DNA from: Butyrivibrio sp. AC2005
GTDB lineage: Bacteria; Bacillota; Clostridia; Lachnospirales; Lachnospiraceae
DNA length: 64,000 bases
Reading direction: 5' to 3'
NCBI RefSeq assembly: GCF_000424145.1
Contig: NZ_AUJI01000031.1
Location: forward strand, 1-64,000
Shown: positions 40,619-49,953 of the stretch, in pieces
Layout: each line of letters begins with the position of its first letter
Position numbering within the stretch: position 1 is the stretch's first letter
Notes under the pieces: model-generated
What the model saw: only the letters and a program-made list of their open reading frames with translations
Database searches by the model: none
Told to the model about the DNA's origin: nothing
Position numbers and translations under genes: made by a program

Positions 40619-40631
40619 AGAGGTGTCCAGA

Positions 40632-41678
40632 ATGACAGAAAGAAATCCATACGCAATCAGTTTTGGTAGGATTCCTACTCAATATATCAGCAGAAATCTT
40701 CTTATTGATGATATAGTAGATACTCTCAATTCAGATGTGGTTGAAGAACAGGCATTTAAGTTGACTGGAATAAGAGGAACCGGAAAGACCGTTACTCTTA
40801 CAGCCATAGAAAAACAAATCAAAGAATATAATAACTGGATAGTGGTAGATTTAAAGTCAAACTCTGCGATTACAAATGATTTAGTTGCAAATCTTTACAC
40901 AAATGTCCCCTTTCTGACAAAATTTATAGATACGAACTTGAACCTTTCCGCTTTTGGAATAGGTATAAATATTAGCAAAAAAAGTCCGGCTGCCAGTATT
41001 GATGTTGCGTTAGAGCAGATTCTTACTGAAATTCGTAAAAAGAAAAAACGTGTTCTCATAGTTATTGATGAAGTCAGAAAGACGGATGCGCTTATTGATT
41101 TCATTCAGGAATTCCAGATACTGATAAGGAAGGATTTGCCAATCTACCTGATTGTAGCGGGACTTTACGAAGACGTTGAAAGTATAGAAAATACGGATGG
41201 TCTTACTTTCTTTTTAAGAGCAACCAAATGTGATATGACTCCTCTGAATATAGGCATAATACGAGAAGACTACAAAAAAACGCTTGGTCTTTCAGAGGAG
41301 GTTGCCTATGATTTGGCTGTAATGACAAAGGGTTATGCTTTTGCATACCAGGCTTTTGGCAAATACATGTGGGAATCAAAAGAAAAGAAAATAACTGGCA
41401 TGGTCCTTGCCCAGGTTGATGAGGCTTTGGCCCAAAAAGTGTATGACAAGATATGGAGTGAATTAAAGCCAAAAGACAGATGGTTTATGACTTTTATTGT
41501 ACAGAAAGACTCTATGAATGTTTCAGAACTTCTGGATATGACAAAGAAGAAACATAATGAATGGAGTGAACCTAGAAAGCGCCTTATCGATAAAGGTGTA
41601 ATTGATGGTTCGAACCGAGGGATGATTATACTTAGACTTCCCAGATTTAAAGAATATGTAGAAAATATGAATCTGTGA
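40632..41678 (+). CDS. P-loop ATPase with C-terminal winged helix (ORC/STAND-like), copy 1
   Basis: This 348-residue ATPase is taken from ATG 40632, eight bases after AGAGG; a GTG at 40623 is in the same frame. Walker A is 'GIRGTGKT' (46-53) and Walker B 'VLIVIDE' (141-147). A sensor-like 'LIVAGLYEDV' follows. The C-terminal about 60 residues ('SELLDMTKKKHNEWSEPRKR', 'LIDKGVIDGSNRGMIILRLP') resemble a winged helix. The layout is like archaeal-type ATPase_2 and Cdc6/ORC proteins, and could bind the phased repeats directly upstream. A paralog lies at 59447. Biological role unknown. Confidence 0.75.
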   Translation: MTERNPYAISFGRIPTQYISRNLLIDDIVDTLNSDVVEEQAFKLTGIRGTGKTVTLTAIEKQIKEYNNWIVVDLKSNSAITNDLVANLYTNVPFLTKFIDTNLNLSAFGIGINISKKSPAASIDVALEQILTEIRKKKKRVLIVIDEVRKTDALIDFIQEFQILIRKDLPIYLIVAGLYEDVESIENTDGLTFFLRATKCDMTPLNIGIIREDYKKTLGLSEEVAYDLAVMTKGYAFAYQAFGKYMWESKEKKITGMVLAQVDEALAQKVYDKIWSELKPKDRWFMTFIVQKDSMNVSELLDMTKKKHNEWSEPRKRLIDKGVIDGSNRGMIILRLPRFKEYVENMNL

Positions 41679-43528: not shown

Positions 43529-43577
43529 AACAGCCCCGGGAACGAGTTGTTGATTGTTTCTGGGGCTGTAGCTTTCT
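43529..43577 (+). terminator. Orphan copy of the Rpn-unit terminator
   Basis: Arms ACAGCCCC (43530-43537) and GGGGCTGT (43562-43569). The DNA from about 43497 to 43550 is almost identical to 49955-50010, the end of the second nuclease unit. It is therefore the leftover 3' end of a further unit whose gene is gone. Confidence 0.65.
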
Positions 43578-43626
43578 TAAATAAGTCCGCCTGGACCAAA
43601 TATTTGCTCCAGGGGATATGTATTCT

Positions 43627-43905
43627 CTATTTTAGTTCACCAAACTGCTCGATATATTTTTGCAATAGTGCATCTTTCTCGGCGATGGTGTTATTTTTCT
43701 CAGCAATGGTGCTATCCTTCTTAGCAATTGTGTTATCTTTCTCCGCTATAGCTTGCTTGAGCTTTGCCATTTCCTTTTCACGAACTTCCTGTTCGAGATA
43801 AAAATCTTCCCTTTCTCGACATCTTTTTACAACATTTTTGTCAGCATTAGAGATAAATATGGATTCAGTAGTAGATTCAAATGAGGGATTATCTTTAGTG
43901 ATCAT
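43627..43905 (-). CDS. Stand-alone C-terminal Rpn peptide with coiled-coil repeats (RpnS-like candidate)
   Basis: A 92-residue frame begins at ATG 43905 ('MITKDNPSFESTTESIFISN'), preceded by GGAG with exactly 8 nt spacing. It ends with four heptads of the TIAEKDx type (residues 52-79) and 'LLQKYIEQFGELK'. In the intact paralog the same Met is internal and also preceded by GGGAGG at 8 nt. In E. coli, rpn genes have been reported to encode such an internal short protein that inhibits the long nuclease. Whether this peptide is made is untested. The insert ahead of it replaced the original ribosome site but supplied a new one. Confidence 0.5.
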   Translation of the reverse strand: MITKDNPSFESTTESIFISNADKNVVKRCREREDFYLEQEVREKEMAKLKQAIAEKDNTIAKKDSTIAEKNNTIAEKDALLQKYIEQFGELK

Positions 43906-43910
43906 CTTGA

Positions 43911-43968
43911 TGTCTCCGTTTCACTTCGGTCGGCGCTAAGCAGATATCCCCCGGATATCTAGCGCCAT
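43911..43968. mobile_element. Short palindromic insertion in the Rpn fragment
   Basis: Compared with the uninterrupted copies at 45655-45668 and 48634-48647, this copy has about 50 extra bases. They contain a strong hairpin: GGCGCT (43932-43937), bulge AAGC, AGATATCC (43942-43949), loop CCC, GGATATCT (43953-43960), AGCGCC (43961-43966). No gene is inside. This looks like a miniature palindromic (REP/MITE-like) element. Confidence 0.65.
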
Positions 43969-44234
43969 CCCATGTAGTTGCTTTAAACAGTTTTACCCAG
44001 GTGACCATTCCGGAGCGGATATCATCATCCGCTGCGATGTCTGTTCTATTTAATTCTACCACGTACAGATTGAAATTACTATCCGGTTGCATGCGTTGAG
44101 AAGGTATGATTATTGGACAGTAAAGAAAATATAATTAGTGTATGAAAATAAGTCTAAAGTTTTAAGAAAAATATTAAGAAGGATTCAAAGAATGAACTTA
44201 TTTTCAAGTATTGTAACATGGAGGACAAAGGACA

Positions 44235-45275
44235 ATGGGGATTAACCCAAGCAGTGAAGACTTGATTAAAAAAGCCCAGATGAGTGACCTGGATGCAGAG
44301 ACAAAGGAGAATATTTTAAAGATTATTAGCGGTGAGCGTCTAGCAAATCTTTATGATGATGCTATTGCTAAGAGGGCGTTTTCACCGGATGTTCATCCGG
44401 AAAGACTTGATTTTCTTTTACAGAGGACAATGGGAGAGTCATATGGAGCAGTTGAGAAATCAGCATCTAATGAAGGAATGACAATTAGTAAGTATTCTAA
44501 GGCGATTGTGACTGATGTGCCGGCATGGCTAAGAGATGGCAAGCGGCTTGATGTTGAATTTCAAGCTGTAGCACAGGACTATATATTTAATCGTGTGGAT
44601 ATATATGCATCAAATATGCTGATGATTCAATTCTCTGTAGAAGAGGGACAGAGTAGGAAGGATGTCGATTATGGGAATGTAAAGGGGGTTATCGTTATAG
44701 TCCTGATGGTTAAGAGTCCTAAAGTATTCAGGGAATTTAAGTCAGACCGTTATATCCACAGAGTGAAAAAGATTGTAACTGATACAGGAATGGAGTTTCC
44801 TGCTCTTAAGCAAATGGCGTTTGTGCAGCTGGACAAGGCACTTGAACTCTTTTTGTCTGATAGATACAATAAAGATGAAGATATCGGACTATTAAAATTG
44901 CTTGCTATGATTGCCGATATTAATAACGATAAGGTAAAGGAAATGACGCAGGGCGACGAGATGTATGATGACATCCGTAAGGAAGTAGATGCATTTTCAA
45001 AGGACAAGGAGGTGCAGGCTATGTTATTGGAAGAAGAGATGGCGCGAGCTGACTGGGTGACAGGTATAAATGCTGCCAGAAGGGAAGGTCATGCAGAAGG
45101 CCATGCGGAAGGACGAGCAGAGGAACATGTGGAAGTCCAAAATGTATATGCATGGCTCACAGGACAAAAAAGAATTGATGATATTTCAAAGGCAGCTACG
45201 GATGAAAAATACTATCTGAAGATGTTGGCTGAATATAAGAAAGCAAATGAACATACTAGCCCCGGAACGAGTTGA
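44235..45275 (+). CDS. PD-(D/E)XK nuclease family (Rpn/transposase-like) protein, copy A
   Basis: This 346-residue protein of the PD-(D/E)XK 'nuclease family transposase' type is common in Lachnospiraceae. Conserved parts are 'LIKKAQMSDLDAETKENILK', 'LANLYDDAIAKRAFSPDVHP' and the core around 'KRLDVEFQAVAQDYIFNRVD'. 'MVKSPKVFREF' and 'DRYIHRVKKI' follow. The C-terminus holds 4-residue repeats (GHAE GHAE GRAE, then EEHVE). An in-frame ATG at 45021 follows AAGGAGG by 8 nt and could give an 84-residue short form. Compared with copy B (48907) the last residues are replaced by read-through into the terminator ('NEHTSPGTS'), through a loss of about 50 bases. Ribosome site TGGAGG at 44219-44224. Confidence 0.75.
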   Translation: MGINPSSEDLIKKAQMSDLDAETKENILKIISGERLANLYDDAIAKRAFSPDVHPERLDFLLQRTMGESYGAVEKSASNEGMTISKYSKAIVTDVPAWLRDGKRLDVEFQAVAQDYIFNRVDIYASNMLMIQFSVEEGQSRKDVDYGNVKGVIVIVLMVKSPKVFREFKSDRYIHRVKKIVTDTGMEFPALKQMAFVQLDKALELFLSDRYNKDEDIGLLKLLAMIADINNDKVKEMTQGDEMYDDIRKEVDAFSKDKEVQAMLLEEEMARADWVTGINAARREGHAEGHAEGRAEEHVEVQNVYAWLTGQKRIDDISKAATDEKYYLKMLAEYKKANEHTSPGTS

Positions 45276-45302
45276 TAATCGTTTCCGGGGCTGTAGTTTT
45301 TT
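45258..45302 (+). terminator. Terminator of nuclease copy A
   Basis: Stem AGCCCCGGAA / TTCCGGGGCT (45258-45267, 45283-45292) is followed by a T-run. It overlaps the last codons of the gene. Confidence 0.75.
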
Positions 45303-45352
45303 AAAAATAAGTCCGCCTGGATCCAATATTCGCTCCAGTGGATATATATTCT

Positions 45353-46258
45353 CTATTTTAGTTCACCAAATTGCTCGATATATTTTTGCAATAGTGCATC
45401 TTTCTCAGCGATGGTGTTATTTTTCTCTGCAATAGTTTCATCTTTTTCGGCAATAGTGCTATTCTTCTTAGCAATTGTGCTATCTTTCTCGGCAATAGTC
45501 TGTTTTAGCTTTGCCATTTCTTTTTCACGAGCTTCCTGTTCGAGATAAAAATCTTCTCTTTCTCGACATCTTTTTACAACATTTTTGTCAGCATTAGAGA
45601 TAAATATGGATTCAGCAGTAGATTCAAATGAGGGATTATCTTTTGTGATCATTCTGATTTCCTCCCATGTAGTTGCTTTAAACAGTTTTACCCAGGTGAC
45701 CATTTCGGAACGGATATCATCATCTGTTGCGATGTCTGTACTATTTAATTCTATCACGTACAGATTAAAATTACTATTGTAGAGGTAGCCATCGAGCACA
45801 TTCCGCATTTGGTACTTTCCAAAGAATTCCGGATGATCTGAAAATAATCTGAAATCAATGAAGCTGACCTGATAAACAGGCTTTAGATTTTCATAAAGCT
45901 CACCATGGCTTAAACTGTCGAACTCCCTGCAAAGATATACCAGAGATCTGTTAGTCCAGTCACTGTAATTATTAATTTGCATTTCAATGTTTAGTGTGGC
46001 AGAGCTATTGAGAGTGACAAGGATATCCAATCGATATTCCTTATCTGACATGGCATCGCCAATAACTATGGGATTTTCAATCGTTACATCTTTAATGTCT
46101 TCTGTCTTAAAGTTCATGATAGAGGCGACAAGCCCTCTAAGGGTTCCTTTGTTGTTCTGTAAGACGGTCCTGAACATATAATCATTTGTCATGTTATAGC
46201 CGATTTTTCCTTTTGCTTTCATAAAAGCATAATTTTTGTGCATGTGAATATTTTTCAA
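45353..46258 (-). CDS. Rpn-family PD-(D/E)XK nuclease, full length
   Basis: This 301-residue protein starts 'MKNIHMHKNYAFMKAKGKIG' and has the PDDEXK_2 core: Asp78 in 'EYRLDILV' and the E-x-Q motif Glu92-Met-Gln94 in 'LNIEMQINNYSDW'. 'RSLVYLCREF' and 'YQVSFIDFRLF' follow. Rpn proteins are DNA nucleases linked to recombination and phage defence. Residues 254-288 are five coiled-coil heptads (TIAEKDS type). An in-frame ATG at 45652 (Met203) is preceded by GGGAGG at 8 nt and would encode a 99-residue short form (45353-45652). This is the only whole copy; truncated sisters lie at 43627 and 48395. Confidence 0.8.
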   Translation of the reverse strand: MKNIHMHKNYAFMKAKGKIGYNMTNDYMFRTVLQNNKGTLRGLVASIMNFKTEDIKDVTIENPIVIGDAMSDKEYRLDILVTLNSSATLNIEMQINNYSDWTNRSLVYLCREFDSLSHGELYENLKPVYQVSFIDFRLFSDHPEFFGKYQMRNVLDGYLYNSNFNLYVIELNSTDIATDDDIRSEMVTWVKLFKATTWEEIRMITKDNPSFESTAESIFISNADKNVVKRCREREDFYLEQEAREKEMAKLKQTIAEKDSTIAKKNSTIAEKDETIAEKNNTIAEKDALLQKYIEQFGELK

Positions 46259-46530
46259 GTAAACAATCCTCCTTGTTTATGGGGAAAAAATGGATTGCAA
46301 TAGAAATAAATAGGAAAAATGATTATGAATTGATAATTCATAACTGTTCGTGATATTGAACTTGTTAAAGTTAACATTAATTTATTGAATTTGTAAAGGG
46401 GATTTATATTAAAAGATTTTCTTAAATGTCGATATCGTTTCCGGGGTTGATTTTCGTAATATTATGTATTATTAAATGCTGAAAGCATAATTGCCAGGGG
46501 TAGGCTATGATTTTTGGGGCTCACTATACA

Positions 46531-46576
46531 CAAAAGTGGGAAGTGGGATTCCCACTTCCCACTTTTGTGATATAAT
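46531..46576 (+). promoter_or_regulatory. Perfect 18-bp inverted repeat over an extended -10 promoter
   Basis: Arms at 46531-46548 and 46550-46567 are perfect complements around a single central base; each arm holds GTGGGAAGTGGG. Four bases after the right arm comes TATAAT (46571-46576), in the extended form TGATATAAT, with no proper -35. The gene at 50152 has the same -10 context with an unrelated palindrome. Confidence 0.75.
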
Positions 46577-46596
46577 GTATGTATGGAGGGAAAATC

Positions 46597-48351
46597 ATGA
46601 CATCTAAAGAAGCTGCAGAAAAGTGGAATATTTCTAAAAGACAGGTAAATTCTTTGTGCTCTCAAGGGAAAATACCCGGTGCAAAACTTGTAAAAGGAAG
46701 ATGGGAAATACCTACTGATTACGTTTATAAGAATGGTTTTCAGTTAAAAACTCCAATGACTGCAAGTGGGCCAAGAAAATATATAAACATAGGGAATGAT
46801 GGCTTTAGGACTATACGCAATAGCGAATATATCGATAAGTCAGGGCTCATTTCTTTTATGAATTCATGCCTTTCAACGTCTCAAAAACTAGTATGTGTCA
46901 GTAGACCTCGGCGTTTTGGGAAATCCTTTGGCGCCAAAATGCTGTGTGCGTATTACTGCAAAGAGTGTAATTCGATGGATCTTTTTGAGGACTTAAATAT
47001 ATCCAAAGATAGTTCATTTAAAACGCATCTTAATAAGCATGATGTAGTTTATCTGGATATGACATTTTTTATTTCTACTTTAAAAAGTGGTGAAGATTTG
47101 ATTGATAAGATAGAAAAAGATGTTATAGATGATTTTTCAAATATCTTACCGGAAGTTACTAATGAAGCTAATCTTGTAGATGCTTTTAGTAAGTATGTTG
47201 CCATCAATGGTCAAAAACTTATTCTCATCATCGACGAATGGGATGCTCCTTTTAGAGAATTCAAAGGAAATGAGCAGATATTAGAAAAATACATCAATCT
47301 ACTCAGATCACTTTTTAAGAGCACATTTACAGATCGCCTTTTTGATGGTGTTTATATGACTGGTATCCTTCCTATTAAAAAATATGGTCATGAGTCTGCA
47401 ATGAGCGATTTTTACGAATACAGTATGGTGGAGCCAAGACCTCTGCAGGAATATATTGGATTTACAGAAGAGGAAGTGGCTGGTTTGTGCCATAAACACG
47501 GCATAAGCTTTGACGATTTGAAAGCCTGGTACGATGGATATCATGTAGCTGATGAACATCTTTTCAATCCTAAATCGGTAATGGAGTCAATACTTAGAAA
47601 GAAAATGAGTAATTACTGGGTTAAAACGGAAACCTATGAATCCTTACGCGATTATATAGACATGAACTTTGATGGTTTAAAAGATTCTGTAGTTGATATG
47701 ATTGGAGGATCAAAAGTCAAAGTAGATACCAATTCTTTTCAGAATGACCTTACTTCGATGGAAAGCAGGGATGATGTTTTAACGCTTTTGATTCATTTAG
47801 GTTATCTTGCTTATGATGAAAATGAAGAAAAAGTATCTATTCCAAATGATGAGATAAAAAGTGAATTTGTGAGAGCAGTAAAAAACGGAAACAAAAAAGA
47901 ACTTATTAAAGCTGTCCAGAAATCAGATAAGCTTCTTGAGGCAACTTGGAGGATGGACGAAGATACTGTAGCACAAATTATAGAAGAAATGCATTCAGAA
48001 ATAACTGCTCCAACATTTTATAATAACGAGCAGGCTCTCAGAAGTGTCATAAAAATGGCTTTTATAAGCAGTATTGATTATTATGCACGAATTGATGAGC
48101 TTCCAACAGGTAAAGGTTTTGCCGATATGGTATTTTGGCCAAAGAAAAATGCTTCATGCCCAGCACTTATTGTAGAACTAAAGTGGAATAAGAGCAGTTC
48201 AAAGGCAATTGAGCAAATTGATGAAAAACAATATTCAACTGTATTTAATGGATACACGGGCACAGTATTAAAGGTAGGTATTAATTATAGCGTTAAGGAT
48301 AAAAAGCATTCCTGTAAGATAGAAAAACTCGCAATATATGTTATGTCCTAA
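46597..48351 (+). CDS. HTH + AAA-ATPase-like/DUF1703 (PD-(D/E)XK) protein
   Basis: The start is the ATG at 46597, seven bases from GGAGGG; an earlier ATG (46579) lacks a site. The 584-residue protein combines an N-terminal excisionase-like helix-turn-helix ('SKEAAEKWNISKRQVNSLCS', then 'GKIPGAKLVKGRWEIP') with an AAA-ATPase-like domain. That domain carries 'VSRPRRFGKSFGAKML' as P-loop and 'LILIIDEWDAP' as Walker B. A C-terminal nuclease-like DUF1703 region follows ('GKGFADMVFWPKKN', 'ALIVELKWNKSS'). Such AAA/DUF1703 proteins are abundant in gut anaerobes and are of unknown, possibly defence or mobile-element, function. The fused HTH is unusual and may bind the palindrome upstream. Confidence 0.8.
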   Translation: MTSKEAAEKWNISKRQVNSLCSQGKIPGAKLVKGRWEIPTDYVYKNGFQLKTPMTASGPRKYINIGNDGFRTIRNSEYIDKSGLISFMNSCLSTSQKLVCVSRPRRFGKSFGAKMLCAYYCKECNSMDLFEDLNISKDSSFKTHLNKHDVVYLDMTFFISTLKSGEDLIDKIEKDVIDDFSNILPEVTNEANLVDAFSKYVAINGQKLILIIDEWDAPFREFKGNEQILEKYINLLRSLFKSTFTDRLFDGVYMTGILPIKKYGHESAMSDFYEYSMVEPRPLQEYIGFTEEEVAGLCHKHGISFDDLKAWYDGYHVADEHLFNPKSVMESILRKKMSNYWVKTETYESLRDYIDMNFDGLKDSVVDMIGGSKVKVDTNSFQNDLTSMESRDDVLTLLIHLGYLAYDENEEKVSIPNDEIKSEFVRAVKNGNKKELIKAVQKSDKLLEATWRMDEDTVAQIIEEMHSEITAPTFYNNEQALRSVIKMAFISSIDYYARIDELPTGKGFADMVFWPKKNASCPALIVELKWNKSSSKAIEQIDEKQYSTVFNGYTGTVLKVGINYSVKDKKHSCKIEKLAIYVMS

Positions 48352-48359
48352 ATAATATT

Positions 48360-48385
48360 ATCCCCTGGTCATCTGGCCAGGGGAT
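48360..48385 (+). terminator. Terminator after AAA/DUF1703 gene
   Basis: Stem ATCCCCTGG / CCAGGGGAT (48360-48368, 48377-48385), same family as the hairpins at 43436 and 52299. Confidence 0.7.
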
Positions 48386-48394
48386 ATGCATTCT

Positions 48395-48763
48395 CTATTT
48401 TAGTTCACCAAATTGTTCGATATATTTTTGCAATAGTGCATCTTTCTCAGCGATGGTGCTATTTTTCTCTGCAATAGTCTGTTTTAGCTTTGCCATTTCT
48501 TTTTCACGAGCTTCCTGTTCGAGATAAAAATCTTCCCTTTCTCGACATCTTTTTACAACATTTTTGTCAGCATTAGAGATAAATATGGATTCGGCAGTAG
48601 ATTCAAATGAGGGATTATCTTTTGTGATCATATCGATTTCCTCCCATGTAGTTGCTTTAAACAGTTTTACCCAGGTGACCATTCCGGAGCGGATATCATC
48701 ATCTGTTGCGATGTCTGTACTATTTAATTCTATCACGTATAGATTGAAATTGCTAGCATGCAT
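48395..48763 (-). pseudogene. Rpn-type nuclease, C-terminal fragment (with RpnS-like frame 48395-48631)
   Basis: A 122-residue frame equals the last part of the full nuclease at 45353 ('SNFNLYVIELNSTDIATDDD' onward) but carries only two heptads (48437-48478). The catalytic core is missing, and the break at about 48757 coincides with that of the fragment at 43627. The internal ATG at 48631 is preceded by GGGAGG at 8 nt and opens a 78-residue frame that would be the short protein. An ATG at 48763 ('MHASNF') gives the longer form but has no ribosome site. If anything is made, it is the short form. Confidence 0.7.
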
Positions 48764-48906
48764 GCGGTTGAGCAGGTATGATTATTGGACAGTAAAGAAA
48801 ATATAATTAGTGTATGAAAATAAGTCTAAAGTTTTAAGAAAAACATTAAGAAGGATTCAAAGAATGAACTTATTTTCAAGTATTGTAACATGGAGGACAA
48901 AGGACA

Positions 48907-49953
48907 ATGGGGATTAACCCAAGCAGTGAAGACTTGATTAAAAAAGCCCAGATGAGTGACCTGGATGCAGAGACAAAGGAGAATATTTTAAAGATTATTA
49001 GCGGTGAGCGTCTAGCAAATCTTTATGATGATGCTATTGCTAAGAGGGCGTTTTCACCGGATGTTCATCCGGAAAGACTTGATTTTCTTTTACAGAGGAC
49101 AATGGGAGAGTCATATGGAGCAGTTGAGAAATCAGCATCTAATGAAGGAATGACAATTAGTAAGTATTCTAAGGCGATTGTGACTGATGTGCCGGCATGG
49201 CTAAGAGATGGCAAGCGGCTTGATGTTGAATTTCAAGCTGTAGCACAGGACTATATATTTAATCGTGTGGATATATATGCATCAAATATGCTGATGATTC
49301 AATTCTCTGTAGAAGAGGGACAGAGTAGGAAGGATGTCGATTATGGGAATGTAAAGGGGGTTATCGTTATAGTCCTGATGGTTAAGAGTCCTAAAGTATT
49401 CAGGGAGTTTAAGTCAGATCGATATATTCACAGAGTGAAAAAGATTGTAACTGATACAGGAATGGAGTTTCCTGCTCTTAAGCAAATGGCGTTTGTGCAG
49501 CTGGACAAGGCACTTGAACTCTTTTTGTCTGATAGATACAATAAAGATGAAGATATCGGACTATTAAAATTGCTTGCTATGATTGCCGATATTAATAACG
49601 ATAAGGTAAAGGAAATGACGCAGGGCGACGAGATGTATGATGACATCCGTAAGGAAGTAGATGCATTTTCAAAAGACAAGGAGGTGCAGGCTATGTTATT
49701 GGAAGAAGAGATGGCGCGAGCTGACTGGGTGACAGGTATAAATGCTGCCAGAAGGGAAGGTCATGCAGAAGGCCATGCGGAAGGACGTGCAGAAGGACGA
49801 GCAGAGGAACATCTGGAAGTCCAAAATGTATATGCATGGCTCACAGGACAAAAAAGAATTGATGATATTTCAAAGGCAGCTACGGATGAAAAATACTATT
49901 CGAAGATGTTGGCTGAATATAAGAAAGCAAATGAGATAGTCGATGAGGAGTAA
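48907..49953 (+). CDS. PD-(D/E)XK nuclease family (Rpn/transposase-like) protein, copy B
   Basis: This 348-residue protein is nearly identical to copy A at 44235 in DNA and protein, with the same ribosome site and 130-base leader. Differences are a few silent changes, one extra GRAE unit in the repeat (GHAE GHAE GRAE GRAE) and an intact end ('KKANEIVDEE'). The internal ATG at 49693 again follows AAGGAGG by 8 nt. Near identity means recent duplication or gene conversion of the whole fragment-plus-gene unit (43620-45250 and 48395-49930). It is followed by its own terminator. Confidence 0.75.
   Translation: MGINPSSEDLIKKAQMSDLDAETKENILKIISGERLANLYDDAIAKRAFSPDVHPERLDFLLQRTMGESYGAVEKSASNEGMTISKYSKAIVTDVPAWLRDGKRLDVEFQAVAQDYIFNRVDIYASNMLMIQFSVEEGQSRKDVDYGNVKGVIVIVLMVKSPKVFREFKSDRYIHRVKKIVTDTGMEFPALKQMAFVQLDKALELFLSDRYNKDEDIGLLKLLAMIADINNDKVKEMTQGDEMYDDIRKEVDAFSKDKEVQAMLLEEEMARADWVTGINAARREGHAEGHAEGRAEGRAEEHLEVQNVYAWLTGQKRIDDISKAATDEKYYSKMLAEYKKANEIVDEE

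Follow-up and report, generated by a model that had tools for sequence, protein, structure and literature searches.

Internal starts in an array of Rpn-type nuclease genes

An array of Rpn-like PD-(D/E)XK nuclease genes is located on contig NZ_AUJI01000031.1 of Butyrivibrio sp. AC2005 (Lachnospiraceae; assembly GCF_000424145.1), and the whole stretch that was analysed, positions 1 to 64,000 of this contig, is hereafter called the window. The array harbors one complete gene of a first type (T1), two genes of a second type (T2a and T2b) and two T1 copies that lack the nuclease core (frag1 and frag2). A preliminary description of this DNA had listed five internal starts, and all of them are present and in frame (Table 1): an ATG is preceded at a distance of exactly 8 nucleotides (nt) by the Shine-Dalgarno (SD) sequence GGGAGG in T1 and frag2, by GGAG in frag1 and by AAGGAGG in T2a and T2b. 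Their count as separate events was not sustained. The segments containing frag1 plus T2a and frag2 plus T2b represent a single segmental duplication with 91% identity, and the tail of the complete T1 gene recurs in both fragments in a self-comparison of the window. An independent origin of five sites is therefore rejected; each gene type contributes a single site, which makes two in total.

The chance level was determined from 293 non-Rpn open reading frames (ORFs) of at least 150 amino acids (aa), taken from the window and from the loci available at that stage, which are longest non-overlapping frames and not curated genes. The combination [AG]GGAGG-8-ATG occurs at none of their 1621 internal ATGs, and if GTG and TTG are also allowed it is found in a single ORF (1/293). 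A looser SD (GGAGG or AGGAG, 5 to 10 nt) precedes 20 of the 1621 ATGs and, with any start codon, appears in 31 of the 293 ORFs. As a positive control, a similar and slightly looser scan retrieved an SD-preceded internal start in all five rpn genes of E. coli K-12, including M244 of rpnA, the start that was mutated in PMC10327210. The present analysis supplements the five starts of the window with a conserved intragenic promoter and with a second start position in a sister subfamily.

Table 1. Positions of the genes, internal sites and predicted promoters of the nuclease array in the window
Feature	Position	Strand	Remark
T1 long nuclease, 301 aa	45353..46258	-	TTG start, AAGGAGG 9 nt upstream
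T1 intragenic extended -10 element TGATAGAAT (predicted)	45748..45756	-	
T1 internal SD GGGAGG	45661..45666	-	8 nt before ATG 45652
T1 short form, 99 aa	45353..45652	-	one helix plus 73-residue helix with 7-aa repeats
frag2 (core-less T1 copy), short ORF, 78 aa	48395..48631	-	
frag2 SD GGGAGG	48640..48645	-	8 nt before ATG 48631
frag2 extended -10 element TGATAGAAT (predicted)	48727..48735	-	
frag1 (core-less T1 copy), short ORF, 92 aa	43627..43905	-	
frag1 insert, portion matching a genomic repeat	43911..43966	-	source of GGAG at 43914-43917
frag1 extended -10 element TGGTAGAAT (predicted)	44053..44061	-	pushed 52 nt farther from start by insert
T2a, type-2 nuclease copy a, 346 aa	44235..45275	+	PF12784 6.7e-11
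T2a internal SD AAGGAGG	45006..45012	+	8 nt before ATG 45021
T2a short form, 84 aa	45021..45275	+	4-aa repeats
T2a candidate intragenic promoter TTGAAC-17-TACAAT	44842..44870	+	suggestive only
T2b, type-2 nuclease copy b, 348 aa	48907..49953	+	one 4-aa repeat more than T2a
T2b internal SD AAGGAGG	49678..49684	+	8 nt before ATG 49693
T2b short form, 86 aa	49693..49953	+	one long and two short helices predicted
T2b candidate intragenic promoter	49514..49542	+	sequence identical to that of T2a
Duplicated segment, copy 1 (frag1 and T2a)	43609..45250	.	91% identical to copy 2
Duplicated segment, copy 2 (frag2 and T2b)	48377..49934	.	91% identical to copy 1

Codon-level constraint on the internal Shine-Dalgarno sequence

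The search for T1 homologs comprised 194 genomes including that of strain AC2005 and gave a match in at least 107 of them. All homolog counts reported here rest on fetched loci, which are a subset of all database matches; the second scan kept 80 of 234 matches, among which the nearest named relatives are Butyrivibrio and other Lachnospiraceae. The first set consists of 96 T1 ORFs with at least 60 bits, with the copies of the window and of its own genome included and with exact duplicates and L046 excluded. Six of the 96 were left out of the SD codon count, because the W, the E or the letters needed are missing. Sequences with the internal Met are designated M-type, and 36 of the 54 M-type sequences, window copies included, have a length of at least 220 aa.

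The alignment of homologs for constraint at synonymous sites, which the preliminary description had proposed as a check, gave a clear result: the refuting outcome named there, a shared protein motif with unconstrained GGAGG codons, did not occur. The SD-forming codon, that of the first Glu of the W-E peptide in front of the Met, is GAG in all 54 M-type sequences of the first set, as opposed to 9 GAG and 27 GAA in the 36 sequences without the Met (Fisher test, 1.4e-15). GAG accounts for 30% of the Glu codons in M-type genes (background 0.30), and the neighboring codon of the M-type group is GAA in 45, GAT in 6 and GAG in only 3 cases. Third-position changes were counted on a tree of 68 ORFs of at least 250 aa (35 M-type, 33 non-M). 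The SD codon of the 35 M-type genes exhibits no change at all, whereas the 93 conserved columns have a median of 10; together with three codons of the promoter described below (1, 1 and 2 changes) it makes up the four lowest of these columns.

A second set was obtained with peptide patterns in named genomes; 14 of its 87 ORFs were dropped because the protein or its last 120 residues equal a first-set ORF, which leaves 73, and 71 of these have the Met. The SD Glu codon is GAG in 71/71 M-type sequences, and GGGAGG stands exactly 8 nt before the ATG in all 70 that have enough upstream codons for the spacing and promoter tests. The next Glu codon is evenly split between GAG and GAA (35 each). The 54 and 71 M-type proteins fall into 83 clusters at 80% and 43 clusters at 70% identity, none of which spans both sets. 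The GAG frequencies of 54/54 versus 9/36 and of 71/71, the empty control (0/1621) and the absence of changes on the tree led us to reject chance or an amino-acid by-product as origin of the SD. The internal start thus represents a selected feature, in support of the preliminary description. At the candidate main starts, 46 of the 68 long T1 genes lack any SD of at least 4 nt. Such weak main-start SDs would fit a lower yield of the long than of the short product; the T1 gene of the window itself has a strong SD.

An intragenic promoter written into conserved codons

Beyond the SD, the near-invariant synonymous codons of M-type genes are located 35 to 42 codons before the start, and a usage-based codon ranking adds a Leu at -32. 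Read as DNA, the constrained codons spell CTGACA, a spacer of 18 nt and TGnTAnnAT, i.e. a -35 hexamer and an extended -10 element about 100 nt upstream of the start. The DNA is constant while the peptide varies: VIEL is encoded by GTGATAGAATTA, VLQL by GTGCTACAATTA and VLSL by GTGTTATCATTA. TGnTAnnAT is present in 79 of the 90 first-set sequences that have letters at the promoter column, whereas 0.67 would be expected if codons are redrawn by usage. On the tree, the ACT and GAC codons of the CTGACA element changed once and twice, respectively, and the GTG codon once. Of the 51 M-type rows, 29 have CTGACA as -35 hexamer; weaker versions are found in the non-M group (CTGATA in 12 and CTAAAA in 10 of 39) as well as in the T1 copy of the window (ATAGTA). 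In the second set, the relaxed form TGnTAnnnT occurs in 67/70 sequences versus 1.38 expected, and the -35 hexamer is GTGACA, CTGACA or ATGACA in 51/70. A TATACT at about -129 nt was considered as an alternative -10 element and is less likely, the third base of its Tyr codon having changed five times on the tree. Extended -10 elements of the tested form are missing in E. coli rpnA, rpnB and rpnE; rpnC has one far from the start and rpnD has three.

Joint relocation of start and Shine-Dalgarno sequence

The non-M sister subfamily keeps the extended -10 element although its start lies 14 codons later: in 25 of the 33 first-set genes AGGAGG is followed after 8 nt by ATG or TTG at +49 codons, i.e. 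14 codons past the M-type site. The relocated SD codon is GAG in 31/33 genes. On the tree of these 33 genes, two promoter codons show no change and the relocated SD codon shows two, which is the fourth lowest of 96 columns (median 9); the third lowest is an unrelated Glu at +29 with one change. L281 of the second set provides a further example, as its start is located one codon later with AGGAGG 8 nt upstream, so that start and SD have shifted together.

Core-less copies of T1

The preliminary description had also noted that two copies without the nuclease core retain the short frame, and this is supported by 25 T1 copies without core residues among the fetched loci (27 rows minus one N-terminal fragment, with frag1 counted once). 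Upstream in-frame starts with an SD at least as strong as AAGG/AGGA are missing in 23 of them, including L108, which is cut by the contig end. The perfect extended -10 element is kept in 21/25: TGnTAnnAT precedes the internal ATG by 104 or 102 nt in 20 copies and lies 52 nt farther away in frag1, whereas it was not found at its usual distance in L035, L107 and L110, and L108 ends with its contig. L101 retains the promoter although its frame is closed on the downstream side. In 14 of the 25 copies, the first-quartile match start is found 35 to 50 codons ahead of the Met, which places it at the -10 element or slightly upstream; eight keep more and three less (one of them contig-cut), and single weaker matches extend further. 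In L096 and L027 an N-terminal piece lies just upstream of the core-less copy.

At the L096 locus, a core-less tail with promoter and SD follows immediately after an N-terminal T1 fragment (ORFs at 1261 and 1500, +), an arrangement that may represent a step toward stand-alone tails. The two T1 matches of genome G062 at E<=0.001 are both core-less tails (C7:309822-310166 = L097 and 373234-373617 = L095), which makes it an orphan-only genome with no full T1 nuclease among the matches listed.

The two fragments of the window exhibit a common truncation junction; their differences therefore postdate the truncation, barring gene conversion with the intact gene, by which frag2 (98% identical) may have been converted. 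With non-aligning repeats left out, the comparison of the short ORFs of frag1 and frag2 gives 8 synonymous versus 3 nonsynonymous codon changes, and that of frag1 with the intact T1 gene gives 8 versus 2, a pattern that, at few sites, favors selection on the short frame. A 52-nt insert in frag1 interrupts the homologous WEE codons, shifts the frame upstream and replaces the original SD. The GGAG that the preliminary description had assigned to a homologous start belongs to this insert, which has six other matches in the genome, and was rejected as homologous SD. By eye, the repeat is partly palindromic, and the new GGAG has the same 8-nt spacing as the SD that it replaced. The lengths of the three T1 short forms of the window (Table 1) differ in steps of seven residues, i.e. 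by the number of heptads.

The type-2 site

The K-E codons of the type-2 site are AAG GAG in all eight distinct sequences with KE[VA]Q.M (backgrounds 0.42 and 0.28), and other T2-like lineages have GGAGG/AGGAGG-8-ATG at different peptides. The codons of the candidate promoter (CTT GAA ... TAY AAT) agree in close relatives and in one stand-alone copy and differ in L115. We grade this promoter as suggestive only, because a column test of 13 diverged relatives gives no support. T2a and T2b differ from each other by one four-residue repeat. They also differ at their ends (45250-45275 versus 49934-49953), where the final T2a codons enter a GC-rich stretch that forms a hairpin by eye and recurs at 43532 and 49989.

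Family membership and predicted structures

Both gene types match PF12784 (PD-(D/E)XK nuclease family transposase; PDDEXK_2; cut-off 27.4), T1 with 3.4e-30 and a score of 105.9 and T2 with a score of 42.8, and the earlier assignment of T1 and T2 to two different PD-(D/E)XK families was accordingly abandoned. T1 also passes the cut-off of 52.1 for TIGR01784 (Rpn family recombination-promoting nuclease/putative transposase) with 58.2; T2 scores 24.8 to 26.2 and is therefore not filed under TIGR01784. None of the T1 and T2 proteins matches the E. coli-type Rpn family PF04754 (Transposase_31) at E<=0.001, and at E<=10 the T1 profile matches none of six E. coli sequences. An alignment of 60 sequences shows D78, E92 and Q94 of T1 to be invariant; in 28 aligned sequences D94 and Q110 of T2b are invariant and E108 is conserved at 90% or more. 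We take D78/E92/Q94 of T1 and D94/E108/Q110 of T2b to be the PD-(D/E)XK active site.

In the AlphaFold2 model of T1 (mean predicted local distance difference test, pLDDT, 93.9) all strands fall within residues 58-170, and Met203 lies in helix 198-205, which is followed by helix 209-223 and a 73-residue helix (225-297). In the T2b model (mean pLDDT 85.8) Met263 is located in a long helix (258-314) with two further helices behind it (318-326 and 328-341). The predicted short forms therefore comprise the helical tail without the D-E-Q residues. A repeat period with at least 35% identity at the best lag was found in 9 of 93 T1 sequences, and the lag is seven in all nine. The full-length T1 and T2b models gave no PDB match at E<=0.001 in a fold search, and the weak top matches include McrBC and restriction enzymes. 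By sequence, solved structures at E<=10 comprise a single weak match for T1 (E 0.48) and none for T2. A search of viral contigs for T2 gave no match.

Proposed in-frame antitoxin cistrons in the nuclease array

The internal site, the constraint on its codons and on those of the promoter, the relocation of the start and the retention of these parts in core-less copies are established computationally, and expression of the short forms is strongly supported by these sequence data. The locus is probably best explained as an array of Rpn-like PD-(D/E)XK nucleases (PF12784), each gene of which would hold an in-frame antitoxin cistron. The full frame would encode a nuclease with a helical tail, and the inner cistron, with an extended -10 promoter and a strong SD placed 8 nt before its start, would provide the helical tail alone; its promoter is backed by conservation for T1 and is suggestive only for T2. 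The repeat helix probably mediates dimerisation of the tail, which would bind the same helix of the long protein and thereby keep the nuclease inactive until a trigger, e.g. phage infection, and the number of repeats would decide which tail matches which nuclease. Frag1 and frag2 have no nuclease core but retain the promoter, an SD and the short frame, and should therefore make the short protein only.

Inhibition, dimerisation and phage defence are proposed by analogy with RpnL/RpnS of E. coli, whose anatomy is the same, which makes inhibition the likeliest role of the short form. According to PMC10327210, the RpnS tails of E. coli are produced by separate translation, RpnA_S associates with RpnA_L and prevents DNA cleavage by it, and short forms relieve the growth inhibition or SOS induction by long forms; one four-residue repeat added to RpnC abolished neutralisation, stand-alone rpnS genes exist, the E. 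coli genes have an internal transcription start, and one C. difficile rpn gene also makes a short form. The systems of E. coli K-12 (rpnA-E) and C. difficile resemble the present one in the long PD-(D/E)XK protein, the in-frame internal start with SD, the variable repeat-bearing helical tail, the stand-alone tail copies, the internal transcription start, which is predicted here, and the arrays formed by duplication (PMC10327210). In contrast to E. coli Rpn, the T1 profile lacks detectable similarity to its E. coli counterparts, the predicted promoter is written into conserved codons, the T1 repeats have 7 aa and form one long helix in the model, the start position varies by subfamily and the SD spacing is 8 nt instead of 6-7 nt. 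McrB-L/McrB-S of E. coli is comparable in that a defence nuclease is attenuated by a C-terminal product from an internal translation start, but McrB-S contains the GTPase part, withdraws McrC and is unrelated to T1 and T2 (PMC12707154). Cas10d/Cas11d also represent two in-frame products of one gene; they cooperate there (PMC10327210), whereas antagonism is proposed for T1 and T2. PMC12707154, a review, counts rpn among the toxin-antitoxin systems, citing the published version of PMC10327210. Among the matches listed by the literature searches, PMC10327210 is the one work on RpnL/RpnS, and no paper deals with an internal cistron of PF12784. The kind of system is already known; the PF12784 branch, the codon-written promoter, the two start positions and the heptad-helix tail are new relative to the literature matches listed.

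Several observations weigh against this explanation. Eight of the 33 non-M genes lack the +49 start (L026 [second ORF], L059, L063, L079, L081, L088, L089 and L090); L079 and L090 have other start sites, and no site was found in the remaining six. Both second-set genes without the Met, L249 and L281, also use GAG, and L249 has no start of comparable strength at the internal site. The perfect extended -10 element is present in only 18/70 sequences of the second set, most others having TGnTAGACT or TGnTAAACT. The type-2 SD is lost or weakened in three relatives (AAG AAG in a stand-alone copy, GAGG only in L114, loss in L115), the column test of 13 relatives did not single it out (Lys rank 28/111; the SD Glu column missed the inclusion rule), and many T2-like paralogs are devoid of a strong internal site. 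The T1 tail is modelled as a long heptad helix, unlike the three-helix bundle with a long first helix solved for RpnA_S. PADLOC gave no match for T1, T2a, frag2 and the AAA-ATPase/PDDEXK_9 protein.

That the SD-like motif is a mere by-product of the WEEI / KEV protein motif and codon usage, with no internal initiation, is scarcely credible. The peptide WEE[IVL]xM is conserved in its own right, looser pairs of SD and start arise by chance at the control frequency given above, and the GAG codons of L249 and L281 would agree with this view; yet first-set sequences with the W-E peptide and without Met mostly use GAA (27/36), the adjacent Glu has no GAG bias, the SD codon remained unchanged on the tree, and start and SD shift together. 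Alternatively, TGnTAnnAT could serve in recombination or as a DNA target of the nuclease itself instead of as a promoter, which would account for the clustering of core-less breakpoints near it and would match the promotion of recombination by E. coli Rpn proteins (PMC5350276). We regard this as highly unlikely in view of the sigma-70 form of the element (a -35 hexamer near [CG]TGACA, 18-nt spacer, TGn and TAnnAT), its position about 100 nt before a conserved start and the internal transcription start of E. coli rpn genes (PMC10327210).

The short form could also be made and act as partner subunit instead of inhibitor, as Cas11d does for Cas10d (PMC10327210). In favor of a partner, the modelled T1 tail differs from the RpnA_S bundle. 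This role is nevertheless unlikely, as tail-only copies are kept, in the window with few amino-acid changes, which fits an inhibitor or decoy better, and inhibition has been demonstrated for E. coli Rpn (PMC10327210). Somewhat more weight, though still well short of an even chance, is due to the view that frag1 and frag2 are ordinary decaying pseudogenes whose short frame is the part not yet lost. It agrees with the insert, the frameshift and the enlarged promoter-start distance of frag1, with a possible conversion of frag2 by the intact gene and with L096 and L027, whose adjacent N-terminal pieces could point to recently split genes. It has difficulty with the 14 of 25 core-less copies that begin at or just upstream of the -10 element, with the promoter retained in 21/25 and with the 8 synonymous versus 2-3 nonsynonymous codon differences of frag1.

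If the E. coli repeat-match rule is valid here, the fragments would not neutralise T1, and T2a and T2b would not cross-neutralise. Given the different repeat numbers, frag1 and frag2 may not protect against the neighboring T1 nuclease, and it is uncertain whether they confer immunity. As a tentative suggestion that we hold less firmly than the antitoxin cistron itself, the promoter-SD-tail unit inside the Rpn-like nucleases of Lachnospiraceae may form a self-contained antitoxin cistron, which is duplicated and retained on its own. Genomes would then gather orphan antitoxins whose repeat number codes for the nuclease that is neutralised, which would confer immunity to nucleases of neighbors or incoming elements, and the near-identical T2a and T2b, one repeat apart, would already be orthogonal systems. 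Near-identical copies that differ by whole repeats offer a ready-made test of repeat number as toxin-antitoxin specificity and of the role of orphan antitoxins. The codon-level and tree-aware tests show that selection acts on the same gene-within-gene logic in a branch that has no detectable similarity to E. coli Rpn, which makes the array a clean example of how nested genes can be recognised from the sequence alone.

Neighboring genes

The gene between the duplicated segments (46579-48351, +) encodes a protein with an N-terminal helix-turn-helix (HTH_17), an AAA-ATPase_like and a PDDEXK_9 domain and is thus a further PD-(D/E)XK member of the array. Upstream of the array, a 351-aa protein (40623-41678, +) has weak PADLOC matches to PDC-S01 and PDC-S20.

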